Positions 3,648 through 56,512 of a stretch of 64,000 nucleotides of DNA are shown piece by piece. The position numbers were made by a program, and so were the translations under genes. Within the stretch, counting starts at the first letter, position 1; each line of letters begins with the position of its first letter. This DNA is from a virus, in IMG/VR virus record IMGVR_UViG_3300017991_000051, positions 105,253 to 169,252 of that record; one strand, given 5' to 3'. The notes below the pieces were generated by a model, which was given only the letters and a program-made list of their open reading frames with translations, made no database searches and was not told the DNA's origin.

Positions 3648-4340
3648 TTATGCGGTTAGTGTTATACCCTTCAACTTCAGTGCTTCCGGAGTCAGTTGCC
3701 ATACGTGATTGAACGCATAGGTCACAACTACCGGCACGACCCAATGTTCTCTTGATTCCTCGAGCTTCCCGATGCCCCCTAACTCCATGACCTCGAACCT
3801 GTTCAGGTTTGTATCCTTACGGATCAGCGGAGCGAACTCCACCAGCTCAAAGAAAACTTCTGTTCCGACCGTTTCGGCTTCCGCCCCGGTCCCGCCGATA
3901 CAGAACACTGTATGGCTTCCTGCTATTATTACCTCATAACGGTATCCATTGTCAACAGCATTATCGGTCACAATGTTCGATTTGTCAATGCTCGAACGTG
4001 TGCCCAGCATATGCTTGTCCCCGATACCCAGCTTGATGCGTCCGTACCGGTTACGTTTGACGTATATCCCAGGCCGGCGTTGTATCGCCTGCGTGGGTGA
4101 TTTAGGCCACTTTGTCACGGATTCAATGGCGATCCGCGAGGCCTCCGTCTCGCTGTTCCAGATGTAGTCCTTCAGACTCGCATCAACGATCTGCGCCGGA
4201 TCGGAGAAGTGCCGGCGGATCACCCACAGTAAAACACCCGTCATGACCAGCGGAGGGTGCCCGATGGTACACAGTGCGCTGAACTCGCTATCCACCCACT
4301 GCGGGTCAATTACGCCTGTTATTGGGGATGCCAAGCTCAT
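3648..4340 (-). CDS. Virion protein, neck or tail-completion candidate
   Basis: 230 residues, start ATG 4340 with GGGAGGACG upstream. It is soluble and mixed alpha/beta with no cysteine cluster or membrane segment. It lies just upstream of the sheath gene, where myoviruses often keep tail-terminator and neck genes. The C-terminus (QLTPEALKLKGITLTA) reads like a short beta edge. No catalytic motif is visible. The role is inferred from position only. Confidence 0.45.
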   Translation of the reverse strand: MSLASPITGVIDPQWVDSEFSALCTIGHPPLVMTGVLLWVIRRHFSDPAQIVDASLKDYIWNSETEASRIAIESVTKWPKSPTQAIQRRPGIYVKRNRYGRIKLGIGDKHMLGTRSSIDKSNIVTDNAVDNGYRYEVIIAGSHTVFCIGGTGAEAETVGTEVFFELVEFAPLIRKDTNLNRFEVMELGGIGKLEESREHWVVPVVVTYAFNHVWQLTPEALKLKGITLTA

Positions 4341-4521
4341 GTAGTACGTCCTCCCACTCCGGCTCGTAGTTCAATGAAATCAGCGGCAACATCCTCGTCC
4401 CCTGTGTCCGCTCACGCCTACGCTCCCTCCTGCGGGAGGGTGGAGGCGCCGGCTCGGGCGAAGCCGGCGCACTCACGGGCGGTGACGGGCTGGCACCGGG
4501 GTTGAAAGTCTTGCGCGCCAT
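4306..4521 (-). CDS. Small Pro/Arg-rich protein, unknown
   Basis: 71 residues, start ATG 4521 behind GGAG. The first half is Pro/Ser/Ala/Arg-rich and disordered, with a basic patch (SRRRERRRERTQ); the second half is a short ordered segment. It overlaps the start of the neck candidate by 35 nt, consistent with translational coupling. GC-rich inverted repeats lie in its 5' half. No family recognised; a small virion or DNA-contacting protein is possible. Confidence 0.5.
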   Translation of the reverse strand: MARKTFNPGASPSPPVSAPASPEPAPPPSRRRERRRERTQGTRMLPLISLNYEPEWEDVLHELGIPNNRRN

Positions 4522-4558
4522 TTACTCTCCAAAGATTGTCTAGCAATGATACAAAATC

Positions 4559-5395
4559 TTAGAACCTGTCCACCTTCACGATCGCATCGAAAATGAGGTG
4601 GTCCCACTCCTCGAGCGCCTTCGGGATCAGCGCAGCGTTGTCCATCGCCCACCCCTTCTTCCGCTCGAACTGGATCCGGAGATGTTTCTTCAGCGGAAGA
4701 TTGGTCACGAAGTACTCGTGCATCTTATTCGCCGCACCCGACAACAGGATGCTTAGTATGAACCGCCCCCACTTCAGCACCGTCCACCACTTCGTGGACC
4801 CGACGGTGTTGTTCTTGCAGCGTTCACCGGTTCCGATCGAGCACAGCTCCAGCTCCGACAGCGACACCCCCAGCTTGGCGATGGAACCAACGGTGGCGAC
4901 CATGGCCGGATTGTTCGCGAACGGTCCACCGTCCGCCAGGCCCTTCCACGGCAGGAAGTAGCCTTCGGCGGCCACGGCCATGCGCACGACCTCCCACAAC
5001 CACAGCTCGCCGTCCTCCGAGTCGCCGGAGAAGAAGACCTTGAGGGTCTCTCGATTCAAATCCGCCGCGGTAATGAAAAGCGGCACCTTCACGTCCTTCA
5101 ACTTCCCCGGGAAGAGGGACTTCAGCGCCGCATTCAGCTCCTTGTCGGAGTAGCGGGGCGTGAACGGGTTGAACCGCTTCCACGTATAGCCGGCAAATAT
5201 CTTCGGCGCCTTCTCGAGGAAGAAGTCCATGAACTGCGCTTGATCGATCTTCGTGGCGATGGACGCGCCGACGATGGCTCCCACCGACGTGCCGGCCACG
5301 AAGTCGAACTTATCCAAATCCTTGACTTGGCTCAGGATCGACGCCTGCCCCACACCGAACACCCCGCCCCCGTCTAGTGCTAAACCTTTCATCAC
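4559..5395 (-). CDS. Patatin-like phospholipase
   Basis: 278 residues. It has all three marks of the patatin family: the Gly-rich oxyanion loop (DGGGVFGVG, residues 8-16), the nucleophile elbow GTSVG with Ser37, and the catalytic Asp in ADGGPFANNP (Asp155). Patatins cleave acyl chains from membrane lipids using a Ser-Asp dyad. There is no signal peptide, so action would be in the cytoplasm or from the particle. A hydrophobic stretch near residues 205-220 may help membrane binding. The start is taken at ATG 5395 behind GTGGAGCG and overlaps the HNH gene by 86 nt. Its place among tail genes suggests lysis, membrane remodelling or a virion role; bacterial anti-phage effectors use the same fold, so other roles are possible. 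Confidence 0.85.
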   Translation of the reverse strand: MMKGLALDGGGVFGVGQASILSQVKDLDKFDFVAGTSVGAIVGASIATKIDQAQFMDFFLEKAPKIFAGYTWKRFNPFTPRYSDKELNAALKSLFPGKLKDVKVPLFITAADLNRETLKVFFSGDSEDGELWLWEVVRMAVAAEGYFLPWKGLADGGPFANNPAMVATVGSIAKLGVSLSELELCSIGTGERCKNNTVGSTKWWTVLKWGRFILSILLSGAANKMHEYFVTNLPLKKHLRIQFERKKGWAMDNAALIPKALEEWDHLIFDAIVKVDRF

Positions 5396-17724: not shown

Positions 17725-18621
17725 TTACCAGCGCGTCGAGTACGTGTAGCCGGAGCCCATTGTACCAAAACCGCCCTCGATGTTCATCTCGATTTTGCGC
17801 TCCTTCACGAACTGGCGCCAGTCGGCCAGCAACTGATTCGCCAGCTCAACGTATATCTTCGCCTTGTCCCTGTCACTGACCGTTACTCCGCCCGCCACGT
17901 AGTTCAGGTGATCCCGGGCGTACCCGCGCGCCGCGATCTCCATGAGGTAGCCGGCGGTTGCCCGCAGCCAGTGAAAACGCCATGGGAATGTTCTCGGCGA
18001 GTACGTCGTCTTCGGTTGGTACTTCTCATTGAACTCGTCAATAGGAAGCCGCATACACGCCACGATCTGAGAGTCGTTGAATTCGAAATCGTCCAGCAGG
18101 AAGTTCTGCTCTGGGCACGAATCGCGCAGGATGAGCCGCACCTCCGGAATCGTGATCGGGCCCGTGGAGGTCACGTTGAGCGACGGGTTGAACACTGCCC
18201 AGTACGGCGTATTCCATATCAGATCATCAGCTGCGTTGAATACCTGTACCTGCGCAACGAAGATGCCGGCGAAACGGGTCTGCGTCGGCGTCAGCTTGGC
18301 TAGAACGATACCCTGCGCCGCGTCGGTAATCTCGCAGGTAACGTTGAAGATGGGGAGGGAGCTGACCTCGCGGTCCTTGATAATGAACTTGACCGTAAAG
18401 GAGCCGGTGGAAAGATCCACAGCGGCTCCATTACGATCCATCACGTAGAGCTTGAAATTGGTCTTCTGACATTGGTATGTCTGAACAACGGGCCGATCGC
18501 CGAAACACTTGCTCCGGCCCATGTCGACGGTTTCGTGCGCAAGGTCATCGGACCCGCGGTTACCCGCAAACTGATCCTGGCTCCCTGTTGGGGATATCGA
18601 TCCCTGATCGCATGCCGTCAT
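17725..18621 (-). CDS. Virion protein with N-terminal beta domain, head-tail connector candidate
   Basis: 298 residues, start ATG 18621. Residues about 45-150 form an Ig-like beta sandwich of the type found in phage baseplate/appendage proteins (FKLYVMDRNGAAVDLSTGSF, then a WNTPYWAVFNPSL edge). The second half is helical (PEVRLILRDSCPEQNFLLDD, PIDEFNEKYQP, a helix ending in WRQFVKERKIEMN), like small head-tail connector proteins. The combined layout and location suggest a joining protein. No catalytic motif is visible. Confidence 0.5.
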   Translation of the reverse strand: MTACDQGSISPTGSQDQFAGNRGSDDLAHETVDMGRSKCFGDRPVVQTYQCQKTNFKLYVMDRNGAAVDLSTGSFTVKFIIKDREVSSLPIFNVTCEITDAAQGIVLAKLTPTQTRFAGIFVAQVQVFNAADDLIWNTPYWAVFNPSLNVTSTGPITIPEVRLILRDSCPEQNFLLDDFEFNDSQIVACMRLPIDEFNEKYQPKTTYSPRTFPWRFHWLRATAGYLMEIAARGYARDHLNYVAGGVTVSDRDKAKIYVELANQLLADWRQFVKERKIEMNIEGGFGTMGSGYTYSTRW

Positions 18622-40843: not shown

Positions 40844-41656
40844 TTATTTCAGGATACACCCATCCGGCAATCCGTTTTCCTCTCTACAGCGTACCAGATC
40901 CCAACCAACCTGCAAGCTGGAAGCCTCAACTTTTTTATCGCCGTTGCTGCAAACCGAATAGTGACCGTGCTGATCGATGGCCATAGATGTCCGTCCTTGC
41001 TGACAACCACCGGACATCAAGTGCGTTAAGCAGGAATCTGCACATATCTGCGGACCGGCAAGAGACAGTTGCGCCATAGTCGTTCGCAAATAAGCGTCCC
41101 AACCTTCCGTACGTTCCCACGGTTTCGGCAACAATACCACCACGGTATCCACGGCACGAAGGATACGCTTATCGATATCACACGCCTCATTCAACGGCGT
41201 ATTGATAGCGACCAAGCTACCCAATCCCTTGTAGTAGTCTATCGCACGCAACACATCGATTATACGGCCTTCCGGATTATCAATGCAACCGGTCGCGCAC
41301 GTATGCATCCGATCATGACTGATATGAACGCGATCGGCCAGCACCGGCCGTAACACTACTCCGTTCGTCGTAACCGCTGTATGGATATGATGCCGAAACA
41401 GGAATACAAGCAGATCGTTCAGGAGCCGCCATTCCGTAGGCTCCCCGCCGCCGATTGCAAACCACTTAACCCGCATCGCCGCCGCCTGACGTACTATACT
41501 CTCCGCCAGCGGCCACGACCACTCTCCCGGCTCCTTCTGTTTGTAGAAGCAACCGGCGCAGTTCAAACTGCATTTCGTCGTCACCAGCGCATGAATTGTA
41601 TGGGGCGCCATATTGGACGCCCCGAATTGTTTTGCTACCTCAACGCCTTCCACCAT
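40844..41656 (-). CDS. Radical SAM enzyme
   Basis: About 270 residues from ATG 41656 (a GTG one codon upstream is equally possible). The iron-sulfur motif CxxxCxxC is VTTKCSLNCAGCFYK, about residues 29-36. A GGGEPT motif follows, characteristic of SAM binding. The C-terminal region carries several more cysteines (ICADSCLTHLMSGGC, then YSVCSNGD), as in SPASM-type or twitch extensions that hold auxiliary clusters. Such enzymes modify peptides, RNA or small molecules; the target here is unknown. It overlaps the preceding gene by 17 nt and ends at a strong terminator. Confidence 0.85.
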   Translation of the reverse strand: MVEGVEVAKQFGASNMAPHTIHALVTTKCSLNCAGCFYKQKEPGEWSWPLAESIVRQAAAMRVKWFAIGGGEPTEWRLLNDLLVFLFRHHIHTAVTTNGVVLRPVLADRVHISHDRMHTCATGCIDNPEGRIIDVLRAIDYYKGLGSLVAINTPLNEACDIDKRILRAVDTVVVLLPKPWERTEGWDAYLRTTMAQLSLAGPQICADSCLTHLMSGGCQQGRTSMAIDQHGHYSVCSNGDKKVEASSLQVGWDLVRCREENGLPDGCILK

Positions 41657-42245
41657 CACGCGGAAACTCCCTTCCAAGAAACTTCTCCATCTCGTCACAC
41701 CACGGCACGTAATCCTTGTGTTCGATCCACCAATCCTGTGAACCGTAATTTACGGTGGTAACACCGCCGTGTTCCGTACCGGGTCCGAACTCGATATAAT
41801 CCGAACAGGACGAATCGCCAACAAACCGCCATGTTACGCCGATCACCAAGCTGTCAAACTCGTCTGAATTCTCAAGCAGTATCTTCGCGATTTCCTTCAC
41901 GCCCGTAAGCCCGGGCGGCAAATGTTTAGCGCCCTCCTCCGCATCGCTCCAGAAATACAGGCCATGAATCTTATGTTTCTTCGCCATATCGGATACAACC
42001 TTGCGTGTATGCTTCGGCTTATCACCAATAGGGCTCTCGCCGTAGTGGTCGCTATCGTACAACGTTTCTCCGATAACAGCGCGAACGGAACGAACATGTT
42101 GAACCATGTCCGACTCACAAACGCGAACGATGTCACCCAGCACCGTCTCGAACAACTTACCTTTTGTGTCCGCATCGTCATAGCGGACCGGATGCGGGTC
42201 GCTCGTGCAATCCGCGGGCACAACCAGACTATACTTGACTTGCAT
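41640..42245 (-). CDS. Conserved-looking protein, unknown
   Basis: 201 residues, start ATG 42245 with AGGAGG upstream. Soluble, mixed alpha/beta, beginning MQVKYSLVVPADCTSDPHP and containing GLYFWSDAEEGAKHLPPG and a C-terminal DWWIEHKDYVPWCDEM. No membrane segment or metal cluster. It is overlapped by the radical SAM gene and could be its partner or substrate; the sequence does not resemble a leader peptide. Confidence 0.55.
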   Translation of the reverse strand: MQVKYSLVVPADCTSDPHPVRYDDADTKGKLFETVLGDIVRVCESDMVQHVRSVRAVIGETLYDSDHYGESPIGDKPKHTRKVVSDMAKKHKIHGLYFWSDAEEGAKHLPPGLTGVKEIAKILLENSDEFDSLVIGVTWRFVGDSSCSDYIEFGPGTEHGGVTTVNYGSQDWWIEHKDYVPWCDEMEKFLGREFPRDGGRR

Positions 42246-42264: not shown

Positions 42265-42338
42265 TAGGCCGGGACGGACTTGAACCGCCGACCACCGGCT
42301 TATAAGGCCGGCACTCTAACCAACTGAGCTACCGGCCC
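42265..42338 (-). tRNA. tRNA-Ile (UAU anticodon)
   Basis: Acceptor GGGCCGG/CCGGCCT, D stem GCTC/GAGT, anticodon stem CCGGC/GCCGG with loop CTTATAA, so anticodon UAU for AUA codons, T stem GGCGG/CCGTC. CCA is not encoded. Bacteria usually read AUA with a lysidine-modified CAU tRNA; the UAU form avoids that modification. The upstream CDS stop (TAG) is tRNA positions 8-10. Confidence 0.85.
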
Positions 42339-42732: not shown

Positions 42733-42757
42733 TGTCGGAATGTTACAGTTTCCGACA
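42733..42757. promoter_or_regulatory. Operator-like perfect inverted repeat
   Basis: TGTCGGAA (42733-42740) and TTCCGACA (42750-42757) are perfect complements separated by 9 nt. The repeat covers the -10 region of the promoter at 42740-42768, the usual geometry for repressor binding. The regulator is not identified. Confidence 0.6.
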
Positions 42758-42768
42758 ACGGTTGTCAA
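42740..42768 (-). promoter_or_regulatory. Sigma70-like promoter for the coiled-coil/tRNA-Ile/radical SAM unit
   Basis: On the minus strand a perfect TTGACA (42763-42768) is followed after 17 nt by TAACAT (42740-42745, four of six). Start would be near 42733. It drives 42718 down to the terminator at 40802. An operator-like inverted repeat overlaps it. Confidence 0.7.
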
Positions 42769-42787
42769 ATTGACGTACATGTGCTCT

Positions 42788-43425
42788 GGGTATCGCTTGT
42801 GCGGAAACTCACGCGTGTCGCTGGGGTATCGCTTCTACGAAGGTTCGTATAGTCATACAGGTTATCGTACTTCTGCCGACTCGCATTCCCGTTCCGGTTA
42901 CCATGAATTATCAGGTTCACACCTGCCATTTGGGGTATCACACGATCATTGGTTCATATCTGTCTAACGGAGAACACTACCAGCATAATTCACATTTTTC
43001 ATCCGGGCATCGATCGAGATATGGTTCACGTTCCAGCGACGGATAACACACTCTTCTTGATTCACTTTCCACCTATGAGTATCAAGTGTTACACAGTTCG
43101 TTTATGATCGACGGGTATCGTGGCGTCATCACCTCGTAATTCAAGGATGGGTATCAATCTCATTCGGACTCACGTCTTGCACAAGGGCAACAATTCATGA
43201 CCGGTTCACACAGTATCTGCGGGCAACACCTTGCAGTCGGTTCGTTCGGGCTGTGTGGGTAACGTCTTTAGGATAACTCACACTGGTCATATGGGCAGCA
43301 ACCTCATGTAGGTTCACGCTTCTGATACGGGTATCGTACTTATGCTGGTTCGTGCGCGGTATAAGGGTGTCACTGATAATATAACTCGTACTGGGAATCT
43401 GGGTACCACAACTCCGATAACTAAG
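42788..43425. repeat. Phased 18-nt repeat array, block 1
   Basis: Thirty-six short cores follow each other at an exact 18-nt pitch, with a single 1-nt slip between 42914 and 42933. Two core types alternate: A is GGGTATCR (starts 42788, 42824, 42860 ... 43401) and B is RRYTCRY (42806, 42842, 42878 ... 43383, last degenerate at 43419). The 10-11 nt between cores vary freely. In A, G1 and C7 are invariant in 18 of 18; in B, T4 and the purine at position 6 are invariant. Stop codons occur in all plus frames, so it is not one coding repeat despite a GY[RH]xxx/GSHxxx look in parts. It ends at the stop codon of the 43421 gene and stands just upstream of the 42740-42768 promoter. No CDS is supported in it. 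Confidence 0.9.
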
Positions 43426-44116
43426 ATTTTAACGTACACCACCACCGCCCGCTGCCGCCCGCGTAGCTCAATGCCTCCCAACGACAACCGAGAGCGCGGT
43501 CGTAAAGCTGTCTGTGCTGATGCCAGTGCCCGAAATACCATAGCGATGGCCTATACATTTTGAGGATATGCGACAGCGCCTTCCGGCATCCATCATACAT
43601 CCTGAACGAACAGTACTTGACGTCGAACTCCTCCGGACAAGTATGACTGATCACAATATCCACCCGGAGGTTCGGGTCCAGTGCATCCACCTCCGCGTAG
43701 CTGATCATCTCTTCCGGAAACCAGTCCAGCCCGATAGTCCGGTACTCCTTATCGTAGGAGGCGGCGCCTCCCATGAAGAGCACGACCCGGCCGTCCGGCA
43801 ACTCCAGTGTAGAGCCGCGGGGCTTGTAGATGACCCGCGGCCAAAACTCGTCGGTGTCGCGCAGGCCCAAGGACTCATGGTCCTCGTGGTTACCGTCGCA
43901 CCAGTAGAGCGTTGTACCCTCCGGCATTTTCGGATGCTTTGGGAGACGCCCTGCACGTATGTGCCGTTGCCGATAGTCCGGCTCCTCCATTCTCGGCCAG
44001 TAGCCGAAATCGCCGCATTGGAGAATGATGTTCGGGCGCTTCTTGTTCACCAACGTGTTCAATGCGCCCCACTCGCCATGGACGTCTCCCATCACCATGA
44101 TATCAATATTGTTCAT
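43421..44116 (-). CDS. Calcineurin-like metallophosphoesterase flanked by repeat arrays
   Basis: 231 residues with all metal-binding blocks: MGDVHGEW (residues 9-16), CGDFGYW, DGNHEDHE, ISHTCPEE and FGHWHQH. This is a complete set, unlike the 5968 paralogue. The closest role classes are nucleic-acid or nucleotide phosphoesterases. The start codon at 44116 has only a weak Shine-Dalgarno, inside the 18-nt array. Block 1 begins at its stop and block 2 at its start, so gene and array form one unit. No promoter is seen directly before it; it would be read from tRNA-Ala. Confidence 0.85.
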   Translation of the reverse strand: MNNIDIMVMGDVHGEWGALNTLVNKKRPNIILQCGDFGYWPRMEEPDYRQRHIRAGRLPKHPKMPEGTTLYWCDGNHEDHESLGLRDTDEFWPRVIYKPRGSTLELPDGRVVLFMGGAASYDKEYRTIGLDWFPEEMISYAEVDALDPNLRVDIVISHTCPEEFDVKYCSFRMYDGCRKALSHILKMYRPSLWYFGHWHQHRQLYDRALGCRWEALSYAGGSGRWWCTLKS

Positions 44117-44123
44117 TACACTC

Positions 44124-44330
44124 GGTTCTCACTATGCATCCAACTCATGTCGTCGTTCTGGGCATCGTTCTCGGTTAGGTTCACACGGTCGCCTCGGGGG
44201 CAACACCTACTCGGCGGTTTGTACGGTTATTGTGGGTATCATAGACACGATGACTCGCACTAGCTCATCGGGTAACAACTACAAAGCGGCTCGTACACTC
44301 CCGACGGGTATTATTCAAATCACGACTGGT
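44124..44330. repeat. Phased 18-nt repeat array, block 2
   Basis: Twelve more A/B cores at 18-nt pitch: A at 44124, 44160, 44198, 44234, 44270, 44306 and B at 44142, 44178, 44216, 44252, 44288, 44324 (the last is inside the tRNA-Ala 3' end and is degenerate). There is one 2-nt slip between 44178 and 44198. It fills the interval between tRNA-Ala and the phosphoesterase start. Same cores as block 1, so one family. Confidence 0.85.
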
Positions 44331-44402
44331 GGAGGCAGAGGGATTCGAACCCACGGCCCCAAGCTTGCAAAGCTCGTGCTCTACCAACTGAGCTATGCCC
44401 CC
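44327..44402 (-). tRNA. tRNA-Ala (UGC anticodon)
   Basis: Acceptor GGGGGCA/TGCCTCC (one G-U), anticodon stem CGAGC/GCTTG with loop TTTGCAA, anticodon UGC; T-loop TTCGAAT. CCA is encoded at 44327-44329. The upstream CDS stop TAG is positions 8-10 of the tRNA. Confidence 0.9.
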
Positions 44403-49367: not shown

Positions 49368-49802
49368 CTACGCTGGTTGATTCACGAGTCCGGGCGTACC
49401 GGACGCCACCGCATCGTTGATCCTGTCGAACAGGCCCTTCACCTTGCGCCCAACGCCCTTCCCCCCGTTCGCCCGCGCCGCACGTACGATCTCCAACTCC
49501 TGCTCGAGAATTGGAACACGATCCGAGTCTCGATCCTCGTCGTGAGTGAAGAGATCGATCAAACACTCGCCCTCCTGTTCTGCCCACGCCAGATACTTGT
49601 CGGGTACAATCATTCCGTGATCGAGCAACCACACCACGACGCCGAAGCGCGCCCGCGGATAAAACGAACACGCTTCGGCACGCAATACATCGTGCATGCA
49701 CTTCTCCACGTGCCGCTGTTGCGGTTTATGGATATCCGGAATCGAATGCATTAGATCCCAGCAGGCATCACTACTACAACTTTCAGGCCCCCATGCACCC
49801 AT
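49368..49802 (-). CDS. DUF4259-like protein
   Basis: 144 residues, beginning MGAWGPESCSSDACWDLM, which has the MGxWG opening and following Asp pattern of DUF4259. Charged helical C-terminus. In bacteria such proteins are of unknown function. Confidence 0.55.
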   Translation of the reverse strand: MGAWGPESCSSDACWDLMHSIPDIHKPQQRHVEKCMHDVLRAEACSFYPRARFGVVVWLLDHGMIVPDKYLAWAEQEGECLIDLFTHDEDRDSDRVPILEQELEIVRAARANGGKGVGRKVKGLFDRINDAVASGTPGLVNQPA

Positions 49803-49805
49803 TTA

Positions 49806-50036
49806 CTATTTCTCCTTCAGTTTCACATCTTCCAATTTGTCGGGGAAGCAGCCGCATGCCTCTTCCTCCACCCACTTCTCATCAGCCCACACTTCCTCGA
49901 AGTCCGACAGCGTGGCGTCCGGCACAGCCTCCTGCAGGTCAGGAATGAGCCGCAGGCTGTGACCACCGACGCTCACCTTGCCATCGATGTACAGTTGTTC
50001 CCAGTCGTCACACTTGACGATCACATACTTCTTCAT
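49806..50036 (-). CDS. Small acidic protein, unknown
   Basis: 76 residues from ATG 50036 (ATG 50039 also possible) with GGAGG. MKKYVIVKCDDWEQLYIDGK then an acidic stretch with two Cys (EEEACGCFPDKLED). Overlaps the end of the preceding gene by about 30 nt. Confidence 0.55.
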   Translation of the reverse strand: MKKYVIVKCDDWEQLYIDGKVSVGGHSLRLIPDLQEAVPDATLSDFEEVWADEKWVEEEACGCFPDKLEDVKLKEK

Positions 50037-50304
50037 CATGATACCTCCGATAATTTGATATTGCATAATGCAGCTGTCGGCGCCATATGCCAATCGCCGC
50101 CGCCCGCCTCGCCAGCTCCTTGAACACATTACGTGCGTTCTGTTCGATCAGCCCGTGTTCGCGTGATGTGGCGGGCATGATCCCGCCATTTCTTATCGGT
50201 CCGGTACAGACGGTACGATCGTACTCCTCCGTCCGCCGATGATACTCCTCTGCCAACGCCTGTAGTTCAAGACTCGGTTGAAAGAATACTCCGTCAATTT
50301 GCAT
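50008..50304 (-). CDS. Small helical basic protein, unknown
   Basis: 98 residues from ATG 50304 behind GGAGGAGG. Starts MQIDGVFFQPSLELQALAEE; the rest is helical and basic with a YHRRTEEYDRTV segment. No known motif. Confidence 0.55.
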   Translation of the reverse strand: MQIDGVFFQPSLELQALAEEYHRRTEEYDRTVCTGPIRNGGIMPATSREHGLIEQNARNVFKELARRAAAIGIWRRQLHYAISNYRRYHDEEVCDRQV

Positions 50305-50328
50305 GATCCTCCTCCAAAGTTCTGTTTG

Positions 50329-50404
50329 TCGGGGCGGCTGGATTCGAACCAGCGATCCCAAGTTCCCAAAACTTGTGCGATAAACCCGGCTTCGCTACGC
50401 CCCG
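50329..50404 (-). tRNA. tRNA-Pro (UGG anticodon)
   Basis: Acceptor CGGGGCG/CGCCCCG, anticodon stem CAAGT/ACTTG with loop TTTGGGA, anticodon UGG, T-loop TTCGAAT. CCA not encoded. Upstream stop TAG is positions 8-10. Confidence 0.9.
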
Positions 50405-50622
50405 ATAGGTTTGACCTCGCCGGATTCCACGAGAGCGGCTACCCGCTTCTCCTCCTCGGCAACGGTCTCCTTCGCGCGCTGAAGACTGCGCTTTGCCTCC
50501 GTCACCCTGTCTTCAGCACGCTTGACTCTATCACGTTCACGCTTCGCATGTCCAAAGTAAAATCCGGCATCCCACCGGCCATGCTTATGCAACGTGCTCG
50601 AGCTGACTACTCCGCACTTCAT
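50395..50622 (-). CDS. Small coiled-coil protein, unknown
   Basis: 75 residues from ATG 50622 with GGAGG. N-terminal MKCGVVSSSTLHKHGRWDAG, then charged helices (DRVKRAEDRVTEAKRSLQRA). Its TAG stop is inside tRNA-Pro. Confidence 0.55.
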   Translation of the reverse strand: MKCGVVSSSTLHKHGRWDAGFYFGHAKRERDRVKRAEDRVTEAKRSLQRAKETVAEEEKRVAALVESGEVKPIGA

Positions 50623-51062
50623 TTCTTGATATCCTCCTCCGGCACCCACAACCAAGCGGCCACGAAGGCGCCGGGGTCGCTGCCGTAGCTGACGCCGGCG
50701 TTGCCATCAACCGCTATGTCGTCACTGCCGTAGCGTTTACGGGCAGCCTCCCGATACGCCTTGGTCTTATCCGTCTCCTCATTCAGCTTCCGCTGCTCCT
50801 CGAGGATGGCACGTCGTTCTTCCTCCAGTTTCTTCAAGTCGATATCGAAGAAGCGGGCAAGAAGCTGCTCTCTTGATTCTGTGTCCGGCATGGCGTCAGC
50901 AATAGCGTCACCAAGCTGTATATCCTTATCCTCCAGCCAGTCAAAGAATTCGTTCAGTTCCGGATACCCGTGCTCGAGGGCCCAAGCCCACTTCGCACAC
51001 TCCGGATACTTCTCCTTGTCGGCATGCTCCTCCGCCAGTGCATCAACGTCTTGCTCAGCCAT
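50619..51062 (-). CDS. Charged helical protein, unknown
   Basis: 147 residues from ATG 51062 with GGAGGAG. A long Glu/Lys helix (LKKLEEERRAILEEQRKLNE) after a WALEHGYPELNEFFDWLEDK segment. Stop and next start share ATGA. No family recognised. Confidence 0.55.
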   Translation of the reverse strand: MAEQDVDALAEEHADKEKYPECAKWAWALEHGYPELNEFFDWLEDKDIQLGDAIADAMPDTESREQLLARFFDIDLKKLEEERRAILEEQRKLNEETDKTKAYREAARKRYGSDDIAVDGNAGVSYGSDPGAFVAAWLWVPEEDIKK

Positions 51063-51348
51063 CCGCTTTCTCCTCCAACGCCGAAAGGGGAACACAACCA
51101 AGGTGGAAGGCGTAACCGTTCCGAACGTATATACGTACTTTACAATTCAACTCCCGCGACATACCATCAATCTCATCAAGTGCATCGACCACGCCGACCG
51201 GCGTGCCTTTCTCCACCAGTAGCCAGTCATGCCTCGCAAGCGGCGGGAGTCTATTCAAGGCAATCCACTGCCGTTGAAGAAGCGACCGTACCTCCGCTAT
51301 ATCCAACAGTTCTATCACATGCTTCGGCCAATCATTTTCGCCAGCCAT
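51055..51348 (-). CDS. Small protein, unknown
   Basis: 97 residues from ATG 51348, behind GGAGG. Mixed alpha/beta (HVIELLDIAEVRSLLQRQW, GTPVGVVDALDEIDGMSREL). Overlaps the next gene by 8 nt. Confidence 0.55.
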   Translation of the reverse strand: MAGENDWPKHVIELLDIAEVRSLLQRQWIALNRLPPLARHDWLLVEKGTPVGVVDALDEIDGMSRELNCKVRIYVRNGYAFHLGCVPLSALEEKADG

Positions 51349-51357
51349 CATACCTCC

Positions 51358-51537
51358 TTATACCGGCAGCACCGTCGCAGTGCCCGCCTCCGTGTCAACC
51401 TCAACCGTCAGGTACTCTCCGTACCTGACCCACTTGTCACACGCCTTGTGGATCTCCACCTCGTAATCCTCCAGCCCGTCCTGCTCGATGGCGTCATCCA
51501 CCACGTCCGGCGTCTTGAATGTCAAACGCACCTTCAT
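51358..51537 (-). CDS. Small protein, unknown
   Basis: 59 residues, ATG 51537 (with an AGGAG upstream) to TAA 51358. Reads MKVRLTFKTPDVVDDAIEQD and ends TVEVDTEAGTATVLPV. Acidic, mixed alpha/beta. Compact spacing to the next gene supports it. Confidence 0.6.
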   Translation of the reverse strand: MKVRLTFKTPDVVDDAIEQDGLEDYEVEIHKACDKWVRYGEYLTVEVDTEAGTATVLPV

Positions 51538-51579
51538 TTTCGCTCCTTTTGTGCAGATTGTTTACTATACTACACAATT

Positions 51580-51885
51580 TCAGTCGTTATTGTTTACTTC
51601 AAGATATTTCTTTGCCACCTCATACGCCTCACAGACATGGAAGTCCCGCGGCGCGTGCTCACCGGACATCGCCGTAGCCAGCATCCGGGCGACGAACTTT
51701 AAATCCTGTACTTTACGACGCAACGCGAAGATAAGCGGCCACTCGGCCGCCCACTCTGTTGTACCACAGTCACAATATGCGAAGGGCTCATCCACATCAT
51801 GTACGTACTCTTTCAAACATCGCGGACATATGCCCGCTTCGGCTAAGCGATCCCGTAACCGGTCCGATTCAGCTTCTGCTTCCAT
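51580..51885 (-). CDS. Zinc-ribbon protein, unknown
   Basis: 101 residues. CPRC at about residue 20 and CDCG near residue 38 form a ribbon; helices follow (LIFALRRKVQDLKFVARMLA). Overlaps the preceding stop by 17 nt. Confidence 0.6.
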   Translation of the reverse strand: MEAEAESDRLRDRLAEAGICPRCLKEYVHDVDEPFAYCDCGTTEWAAEWPLIFALRRKVQDLKFVARMLATAMSGEHAPRDFHVCEAYEVAKKYLEVNNND

Positions 51886-52396
51886 TCTCTACCTCCCCCG
51901 CACCGCGCGGTAGTCCAACCTTATCCCATACCTCATCGGGCAGAAAGCACATACGCTTCCGGCAAATCTGATCGGCCAGTTCCGGCTGCGTTACGAGCCG
52001 CCGAAGGGCTTCCTCCTTCATGATCACCCATCCGCCTGTACGGTAGGGATTCTTCTCACCAACTTGATCGTCACGAACGGAGACGAGGATGATCCCCTTC
52101 TTCATATGCCCTTGACATTCTTGGCATATGCCGTTCTGCTCAATCTTCTCCGTATCGCGGAGTTCCTCACGCTCCCAGCCATCCCAGCCGATCTTTGCGT
52201 TGCCGCATTTCGGACACTTGTCGTTCCGCTTGACGCCACCGAAAACCCATGTGTCACATTGAGGACACTTCTCTTTGTAATTCTTGGTGCCCAACAGGGC
52301 TATCGAATCGTCTTTCCGCTCTCCGCACGCGAAGCAGCAGATGGTGATGAGCCGCGGGTTGACCCCCAGCTCCTTATGCAATGAAATACTCGACAC
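51869..52396 (-). CDS. Multi-zinc-ribbon protein
   Basis: 175 residues, GTG start sharing its first base with the preceding stop. Cys pairs: CCFACGERK, CPQCDTW, CPKCGNAK, CQECQGH give three or four ribbons. C-terminal helical part with TQPELADQICRKRMCFLPDE. Possibly nucleic-acid or protein binding. Confidence 0.6.
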   Translation of the reverse strand: MSSISLHKELGVNPRLITICCFACGERKDDSIALLGTKNYKEKCPQCDTWVFGGVKRNDKCPKCGNAKIGWDGWEREELRDTEKIEQNGICQECQGHMKKGIILVSVRDDQVGEKNPYRTGGWVIMKEEALRRLVTQPELADQICRKRMCFLPDEVWDKVGLPRGAGEVENGSRS

Positions 52397-52572
52397 TACT
52401 TGATGCTCCTCCTCACTTTCCTCAGATCCGCATGTTTGCTCAGTCCGTGGAATATCCGACGGCCTTCCGACATAGATCGGATCAGATCCTCATCTCGTGC
52501 CGCCCGGGCAAACGCTTCCGATGTTGGGTGTGCATGCCTCAACTCGCGAAGACGGTCCATCACATCACTCAT
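52396..52572 (-). CDS. Small helical basic protein
   Basis: 58 residues, ATG 52572 to TAG 52396. MSDVMDRLRELRHAHPTSEA then a basic, helical C-terminus (LRKVRRSIK). Reads straight into the next gene with TAGTG overlap. Function unknown. Confidence 0.55.
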   Translation of the reverse strand: MSDVMDRLRELRHAHPTSEAFARAARDEDLIRSMSEGRRIFHGLSKHADLRKVRRSIK

Positions 52573-52864
52573 TGTTTCTTTTCCTTTCTCCCAACGGGTT
52601 TGACGTAATAACGTAACGGGTGTAACACGATATACAAAGCCGCTCTACCTCCCTGTCGGATCCCACGTCAAGTTCGGTAAGTTGGTGCGGTTTCCCGCAC
52701 CGGCGGCATATCGTGGCATCGCCATCCGAACAGTAGACAGGAGGCGCATCCGGCTCCATATAGTCCAGCTCCGGATCATCCACGTTCTCGCAATGTAAAA
52801 CCTGCGTATGGCCGTCGCCGACCATCGTGCCCCCGCATACGGGGCATACATGACTCCTGTCCAT
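52565..52864 (-). CDS. Zinc-ribbon protein
   Basis: 99 residues, start ATG 52864 with AGGAGG. CPVCGG near the N-terminus, CRRCGK and CISCY later: two zinc sites. Overlaps the next start by 8 nt. Confidence 0.6.
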   Translation of the reverse strand: MDRSHVCPVCGGTMVGDGHTQVLHCENVDDPELDYMEPDAPPVYCSDGDATICRRCGKPHQLTELDVGSDREVERLCISCYTRYVITSNPLGERKRNNE

Positions 52865-55795: not shown

Positions 55796-56512
55796 CTAGG
55801 TTAATACCTCCAGTCTCCGTACTCGCAGTTTCCCATCCATCGTCGGAAGACCTGCAAACAATATATCCTCGGAACGAACGCGCACGTCCAGACACAGCAG
55901 TTCCATACCCGGATCGCACAGCCCGTACCATGATGGATGGTGTCCTCGCTTGAGCACATGAAGCCCGGGCCCACACTGCTGGTCCGATATCTCACCTTCC
56001 GCTTCGATGGTTGCTCCCTTAGGATACTCTATGACAGTCCCACCATCAAAGTTAGGACTTTTCCTGTCTAGCGTAACCCATTTGGAAAAGACATGCGACG
56101 CTCCATCCTTCCCGTACGCTTCACGTAACTGCTCGTTCAACATCATTGACGTAACACTGTTGCCGAGCTGGACATTGTTGCCGAGATGGACATCGTTGCC
56201 GAGCTGGACATCGTTGCCGAGCTGGACATAGTTGCCGAGCTGGACATTGTTGCCGAGCTGGACACGGTTGCCGAGATGGACACCGTTGCCGAGCCGGACA
56301 CAGTCGCCGAGCTGGACAAGGTTGCCGAGATGGACATTGTTGCCGAGCTGGACAAGGTTGCCGAGATGGACATCGTTGCCTAGCCGGACACAGTCGCCGA
56401 GCTGGACATAATTGCCGAGATGGACCCAGTCGCCATCGGGTGAAATATACCACCCGTTTTCTAGTGGCCACGAACGAATTTCGTCTACTTTTGCATTCTT
56501 GATCATTTTCAA
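55796..56512 (-). CDS. Hexapeptide-repeat protein with C-terminal CGPGLH domain
   Basis: 238 residues. Fifteen tandem hexapeptides V-x-L-G-N-x (residues 30-119), predicted to form a left-handed beta-helix or similar solenoid, precede a folded domain with CGPGLHVLKRGHHPSWYGL, a phage-typical CGPGLH module. The repeats are nearly identical at DNA level (see next feature). Function unknown, perhaps a surface or scaffold role. Confidence 0.65.
   Translation of the reverse strand: MKMIKNAKVDEIRSWPLENGWYISPDGDWVHLGNYVQLGDCVRLGNDVHLGNLVQLGNNVHLGNLVQLGDCVRLGNGVHLGNRVQLGNNVQLGNYVQLGNDVQLGNDVHLGNNVQLGNSVTSMMLNEQLREAYGKDGASHVFSKWVTLDRKSPNFDGGTVIEYPKGATIEAEGEISDQQCGPGLHVLKRGHHPSWYGLCDPGMELLCLDVRVRSEDILFAGLPTMDGKLRVRRLEVLT
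56156..56425 (-). repeat. Fifteen near-identical 18-bp in-frame repeats
   Basis: Each unit encodes V-x-L-G-N-x. On the plus strand units read like GCCGAGCTGGACATTGTT with few changes. Such arrays change length easily by slippage or recombination. Confidence 0.8.

Follow-up and report, generated by a model that had tools for sequence, protein, structure and literature searches.

Degenerate, tRNA-fused arrays distant from the tas gene in a phage genome: a very probable TIGR-TasA system whose edge repeats covary between neighbouring copies

INTRODUCTION

TIGR (Tandem Interspaced Guide RNA) arrays, whose 36-nt units contain two spacers and dual repeats, have been described by Faure et al. (2025; PMC12045711), and the targets, guide processing and array growth of the TIGR-Tas systems reported in that year are still open questions in the field. 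In the structure of TasR, the edge repeat takes part in a box C/D pair and in one pair more, both of them formed between the two distinct edge repeats that remain at either end of a processed tigRNA (PMC12045711). Covariation has been reported earlier between array consensus sequences (PMC12045711), and no prior report of copy-level covariation within one array was found in the literature searched.

We have analysed a stretch of 64,000 nt (hereafter, the window), which covers positions 105253-169252 of the 169,252-base viral record IMGVR_UViG_3300017991_000051, from a large phage. Two blocks of short repeats in it can be assigned with high confidence to the dual-repeat arrays of a phage TIGR-TasA system, read from the minus strand. 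TIGR-TasA itself is already known; what is new is that the arrays lie far from tas, that they are highly degenerate and one is fused to a tRNA, together with a test of guide-end pairing by evolutionary change, which holds in other viruses too. Because the arrays are so degenerate, this pairing is testable from sequence alone, and they serve as a natural mutagenesis experiment on guide boundaries.

COMPARISON WITH DESCRIBED SYSTEMS

The repeats belong to a family common to the arrays beside the tas genes of Salicola phage CGphi29 (GCGAGCCA/AAGACAACCA), Microcystis phage Mvi-JY20 (ATGCGAGCC/ACGAAACCC) and viral contigs L010-L014. Like the TIGR-TasA system of Mvi-JY20, whose TasA is a minimal one, the present one has 36-nt units with two spacers of 9 nt each, edge and loop repeats from the same sequence family, edges truncated at either end of the arrays, a nuclease-less Tas of Nop type, a location in a phage genome, and gene and arrays on the same strand. 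It differs in having its tas gene at least 13 kb from every array, three separate arrays, one array that starts from the CCA end of a tRNA, two arrays that frame an unrelated gene, repeats that are degenerate but compensated, and about 88 extra residues in TasA.

The TIGR-TasH system of CGphi29 (PDB 21kl and 9w04) shares the Nop/IS110-type core, the 36-nt units and related repeats, but there the TasH carries an HNH nuclease and the array comes straight after the gene; the present phage differs in both respects. The product of that TasH gene is identical to PDB 21kl over its 309 residues, and the 36-nt array directly after it was used as the positive control. With TIGR-TasR (PDB 9mty) the phage shares box C/D-like edge pairing, including the extra pair between the edge halves of one tigRNA, whereas the RuvC nuclease of TasR is absent from the phage TasA. 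A box C/D-type guide RNA directly downstream of a tRNA, where processing of the tRNA 3' end could release the 5' end of the guide, also recalls plant dicistronic tRNA-snoRNA genes (Kruszka 2003, as cited in PMC12045711); the likeness is one of layout only, and the snoRNA is eukaryotic and serves RNA modification.

ARRAY ANATOMY

The main features are listed below in order of minus-strand reading; coordinates are those of the window unless the record is named.

44327..44402, minus strand, tRNA-Ala (TGC), running straight into the 5' end of array B
44111..44327, minus strand, repeat block read as TIGR array B, 6 units (12 cores, the last against the tRNA), one 2-nt slip
43421..44116, minus strand, metallophosphoesterase ORF (Pfam Metallophos, 1.4e-13), which fills the gap between arrays B and A exactly
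42775..43422, minus strand, repeat block read as TIGR array A, 18 units of 36 nt (36 cores), one 1-nt slip
42806..42814, minus strand, edge repeat at the last internal unit boundary of array A, GCGTGAGTT
42788..42796, minus strand, loop repeat, last copy of array A, GCGATACCC
42265..42338, minus strand, tRNA-Ile (TAT), downstream of array A and one small ORF
record ~17850-17985, same strand as tas, repeat block read as TIGR array C, 3 units, outside the window

The original prediction had counted 36 cores with one 1-nt slip in the first block and 12 with one 2-nt slip in the second, and both counts hold, corresponding to 18 and 6 units. It had also proposed autocorrelation at lags 18 and 36 as a check, and both lags were above shuffled sequence. 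Identity at lag 36 was 0.458 in the block at 42788-43425 (shuffled mean 0.251, z=12.0) and 0.415 in that at 44124-44330 (z=4.9), while lag 18 was weaker (0.315 and 0.349; z=3.7 and 3.0, respectively). The predicted 18-nt pitch is thus real as a peak, but since lag 36 is the stronger, the true period is 36, built of two alternating repeats. The phosphoesterase gene between the blocks gave no lag signal (z=0.5).

Per-column information revealed two 9-nt conserved stretches alternating with two 9-nt variable ones, so that a unit on the minus strand consists of a 9-nt edge repeat (consensus RHRYGARYY), a 9-nt spacer, a 9-nt loop repeat (DYGWTRCCC) and a second 9-nt spacer. The cores GGGTATCR and RRYTCRY noticed earlier are the plus-strand readings of the loop and edge repeats, respectively. 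The loop repeat contains a G-C pair that hardly varies (plus positions 7:2; 24/25 copies). Truncated edges are found at the ends of arrays A and B, as TIGR arrays are described; in array C the first unit is shortened and the end ambiguous. The end of array B on the 3' side is a half-edge GAAC within the start region of the phosphoesterase gene (ATGAACAAT).

The three arrays comprise 27 units in total, and all of them lie on the same strand as tas. A lag-36 scan of the record, for which the three units of array C are too short, flagged arrays A and B and four other stretches, all in the window, and nothing outside it; none of the flagged stretches adjoins tas. The strongest of the four is a near-perfect 18-nt tandem repeat (14.8 copies, window 56159-56425) within a long ORF, which is coding and has no relation to the TIGR arrays. 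When a strict consensus pattern of two units was used for searching, no further viral contig came up.

The properties by which TIGR dual-repeat arrays are recognized are present here, i.e., alternating repeats of 8-12 nt, spacers of about 9 nt and about 36 nt per unit, together with a box C/D pair in both repeats and an extra edge pair between the halves of one guide. Constant and variable stretches also alternate in CRISPR and other known repeat-spacer systems, but a CRISPR array has repeats of one type of about 25-36 nt with similar spacers, into which 9-nt repeats of two alternating types and 9-nt spacers do not fit, and a tas gene with box C/D-type pairing fits TIGR instead. We consider the chance that these blocks are such a system to be negligible, as was argued from the shortness of the repeats when they were first noticed. 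Two typical, non-defining TIGR traits, a terminator after the array and a tas gene adjoining it, are lacking. No rho-independent terminator was found after array A, which counts against the TIGR-TasA reading, and array B runs into the gene.

COVARIATION BETWEEN EDGE REPEATS

When the two halves of the edge repeat are taken from neighbouring copies, plus positions 24:21 and 25:20 form Watson-Crick pairs in 21/22 and 19/22 neighbouring pairs, in one polarity, that of the halves which bound a single guide. Within single copies the same positions pair in 14/25 and 7/25 cases, near or below the random level, and edge pairing at offsets -2, -1 and +2 gave no significant excess, and pairing within one repeat copy or at other offsets was rejected on these copy-level counts. 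Over all 27 units, a count that takes in the truncated terminal half-edges, the inner pair is Watson-Crick in 26 and the C/D pair in about 23-24 (a direct count gives 23, plus one G-U). The scored pairs amount to 50/54, against a mean of 26.6 (sd 4.4, maximum 46) for permuted half-edges, and none of 200,000 permutations reached this value. The inner and C/D pairs were the top two signals in an unbiased scan of all column pairs, and the units are mostly of two types, GC/TA and AT/CG, ten each.

The pattern was replicated in related arrays. For the inner pair, 131/136 were obtained in 14 arrays of 13 other viral loci, restricted to arrays that vary at the tested positions, against a permutation mean of 95.0 (sd 4.2, maximum of 20,000 permutations 111); the C/D pair was kept in 55/78 (mean 41.9, p=0.001). 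The cross-copy covariation identifies RHRYGARYY as the edge repeat, with a guide that runs from mid-edge to mid-edge and whose ends pair, and a 36-nt guide can thus be predicted from the bases alone. The compensatory changes point to strong selection on the pairing of guide ends, here as in other viruses. Pairing of this kind can guide searches for TIGR arrays at a distance from any tas gene, which mining by adjacency, the approach of the founding study, would overlook.

These compensatory base pairs characterize a guide-RNA array, and the possibility of a peptide repeat was rejected, in line with the earlier proposal of selection at the DNA or RNA level instead of on an encoded peptide. The same proposal had left a choice between a guide-like diversity array and a phased binding array; the former is the right one, in the form of a TIGR guide-RNA array with a tas gene in the record. 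If the blocks were a phased DNA-binding array, with a protein recognizing both cores on the DNA of an origin, a partition site or a nucleoid site, the regular 18-nt phase and the lag-18 excess over shuffles would follow, but neither Watson-Crick covariation of neighbouring half-repeats nor the recurrence of these motifs next to Tas genes in dozens of viruses would be expected. We regard this as highly improbable, and the data do not require it, even though TasA itself probably binds DNA by means of its guides.

The mean pairwise identity of the edge repeats is 0.55, against a median of 0.875 and a lowest value of 0.68 in 48 related arrays, which were found with a motif favouring regular copies; among the arrays compared, the repeats of this phage are the most degenerate. 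The arrays could accordingly be decaying TIGR remnants under relaxed selection, whose tas partner was lost or changed, the TasA at least 13 kb away serving otherwise. The low edge identity, the lack of an array beside tas and the TasA insert absent from the relatives aligned would suit such decay. Against it, pairing has been kept at 50/54 despite the divergence, mostly by two-sided changes, which means purifying selection on the guide, and the tas ORF is intact; we therefore think decay very unlikely, and favour working TIGR arrays.

THE TAS PROTEIN

A single tas gene is found in the record, at 4005-5156 on the minus strand, with an intact ORF. It was detected only with TasH as query, which gave one significant match among all ORFs of the record (phmmer, E=2.6e-8); the Pfam profiles Nop (PF01798) and Transposase_20 (PF02371) matched nothing in the record. 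In PDB, the product matched TasR 9mty (5.6e-7) and TasH 21kl (3.5e-6). Searching with it led to the TasA of the Microcystis phage, which has an adjacent array of the same family, and to relatives on 53 viral contigs. A profile of 55 relatives (those from the 53 viral contigs and two phage proteins), from which the phage TasA was left out, recovered the gene as its sole match in the record (E=6e-58), and the family alignment including it gave E=1.9e-93, again with one match only.

The protein aligns end to end with minimal Tas proteins, its extra residues being internal. It has no RuvC or HNH nuclease at the N-terminus, Pfam detects no nuclease, and in a tree it groups, on a long branch, with the nuclease-less Tas proteins of L010-L014. 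By its sequence, the product of 4005-5156 is of the nuclease-less TasA type. For the AlphaFold model of the relative from L014 (pLDDT 90), the only convincing PDB matches were TasH, TasR and complexes of the IS110 family (IS621 and ISCro4). A Nop-domain Tas, as judged from the sequence and from the fold of this close relative, is thus encoded in the same genome as the arrays.

About 88 extra residues follow the conserved LWRxxGY motif and are absent from the nine relatives aligned. Judged by position, they might lie at or near the DNA-separating wedge loop of TasR, and the activity of TasA could differ owing to this loop insert, a point that weighs against a straightforward TIGR-TasA assignment. 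A Cys-rich ORF directly downstream of array C (P0001; 307 aa, L001:16925-17848, with the same coordinates in the record) was a Tas candidate by position and was rejected; it has no match in Pfam, PHROGs or PDB. In distant relatives of the phage collected by DNA polymerase, no Tas was detectable, and there was no positive control among them. TasA relatives with an adjacent array of the same family occur also on bacterial contigs, one of Ornatilinea apprima P3M-1 (L070:4001-4807; 47% identity in the best segment) and one of a Planctomycetota MAG (L071:4001-5350; 33% in the best segment).

LAYOUT, tRNA JUNCTION AND PHOSPHOESTERASE

The tas gene is 12.7 kb from array C, the nearest, and 143 kb from arrays A and B along the record, or about 24 kb if the ends are joined. 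In the relatives, an array lies at most 600 bp from tas in 52/53 loci, and all regular edge chains of four or more in the fetched flanks are on the tas strand within 1.5 kb. A tas gene this distant was not seen in the relatives checked, and the separation of gene and array speaks against the TIGR-TasA assignment. Array C near tas carries the same repeat as arrays A and B at the other end of the record, which makes a chimeric contig unlikely.

Arrays A and B are situated inside a minus-strand run of eight tRNA genes; all eight tRNA genes of the window and the phosphoesterase gene are on this strand. A radical SAM protein gene also lies among the tRNA genes (window 40844-41698). Array B starts at the CCA end of tRNA-Ala, its first half edge being the A of CCA plus GTC. 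No array abuts a tRNA in the 50 relatives scanned. Array A starts at the stop codon of the phosphoesterase gene (TAGTT). Just past the end of array A and before a 129-aa ORF there is a sigma-70-like promoter (TTGACA-17-TAACAT, minus strand, window 42740-42768), and the count of such sites in the region is not above shuffles.

The ORF at 43421-44116 lies exactly between the blocks, as had been noticed, and one of the two readings in the original prediction made it a partner of the array. One could suppose that the phosphoesterase takes part in the system, e.g., by trimming the guides, and has stayed between the arrays on that account. Its start codon overlaps the terminal half-edge of array B and its stop codon that of array A, leaving no unused bases in between, and the enzyme that makes the tigRNA ends was left unidentified in the founding study (PMC12045711). 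The adjacency check in relatives turned out negative, with the phosphoesterase motif in 0/53 related tas loci (fetched flanks), and no such gene was seen beside array C or tas; moreover, PHROG already has a family of phage proteins of this type, phrog_1649. A role in the system is very unlikely on these grounds. A search with the phosphoesterase gave one distant relative only. Because the motif is absent from the 53 related loci, the position of the gene is probably incidental and the protein probably a bystander, and the partner of the arrays would be the TasA encoded elsewhere. A second metallophosphoesterase gene (record 76352-76951; L005:352-951) lies near no array.

PROPOSED MECHANISM AND TARGETS

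By analogy with the family, the arrays would be transcribed from the minus strand and their RNA presumably cut mid-edge into 36-nt tigRNAs, in the order half edge GARYY, spacer A (9 nt), loop repeat, spacer B (9 nt) and half edge RHRY. The two half edges of one guide would pair through the box C/D pair and one further pair, and the guide would be held by a dimer of TasA supplied in trans from record 4005-5156. The loaded complex is expected to bind an 18-bp DNA target, with spacers A and B each taking one strand. As the searches detected no nuclease domain in the protein, the expected outcome is not cutting but the blocking or bending of DNA of competitors, the host or phages.

Array B continues directly from tRNA-Ala, and so the array may draw its promoter, and its first guide its 5' end, from the transcription and 3'-end maturation of the tRNA. 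The arrangement suggests that tRNA 3' maturation may set this guide end, and the junction is a concrete candidate route to guide 5'-end formation. As a tentative picture, which we hold to be possible rather than likely, the arrays are a guide supply distributed over intergenic gaps, tRNA-Ala transcription and maturation make the 5' end of the first guide of array B, as a phage equivalent of the tRNA-snoRNA genes, and the one enlarged TasA acts for all arrays in trans as an RNA-guided DNA-binding regulator.

The comparison of spacers with phage sequences, another check put forward at the outset, yielded no excess over shuffled spacer pairs, which is a further point against the TIGR-TasA reading. 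Self-targeting was rejected, as the record contains one site with two mismatches and five with three mismatches, not above shuffled pairings. In 1.06 Mb of related loci (460 units), there were 7 one-mismatch matches against 1-7 in controls, and no exact match.

OTHER OBSERVATIONS IN THE RECORD AND RELATED CONTIGS

The phage record contains a predicted tmRNA gene (tag ADNEALPMAA, L001:8961-9318), and a tmRNA gene is present also in the tas-carrying contig L022. A DNA polymerase A with a fused N-terminal uracil-DNA glycosylase domain is encoded at record 49603-52599 (L003:11603-14599), and the best phage matches of this fusion include SPO1-type phages, at about 25% identity. In the 188-kb contig IMGVR_UViG_3300032156_000001 (L051:7004-14521), four lag-36 arrays, about 100 units by length, surround a gene for a 441-aa Tas. 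Their repeats are of a different family (GATCGAGACA / GAGNACC), and this locus is possibly a very large TIGR guide set.
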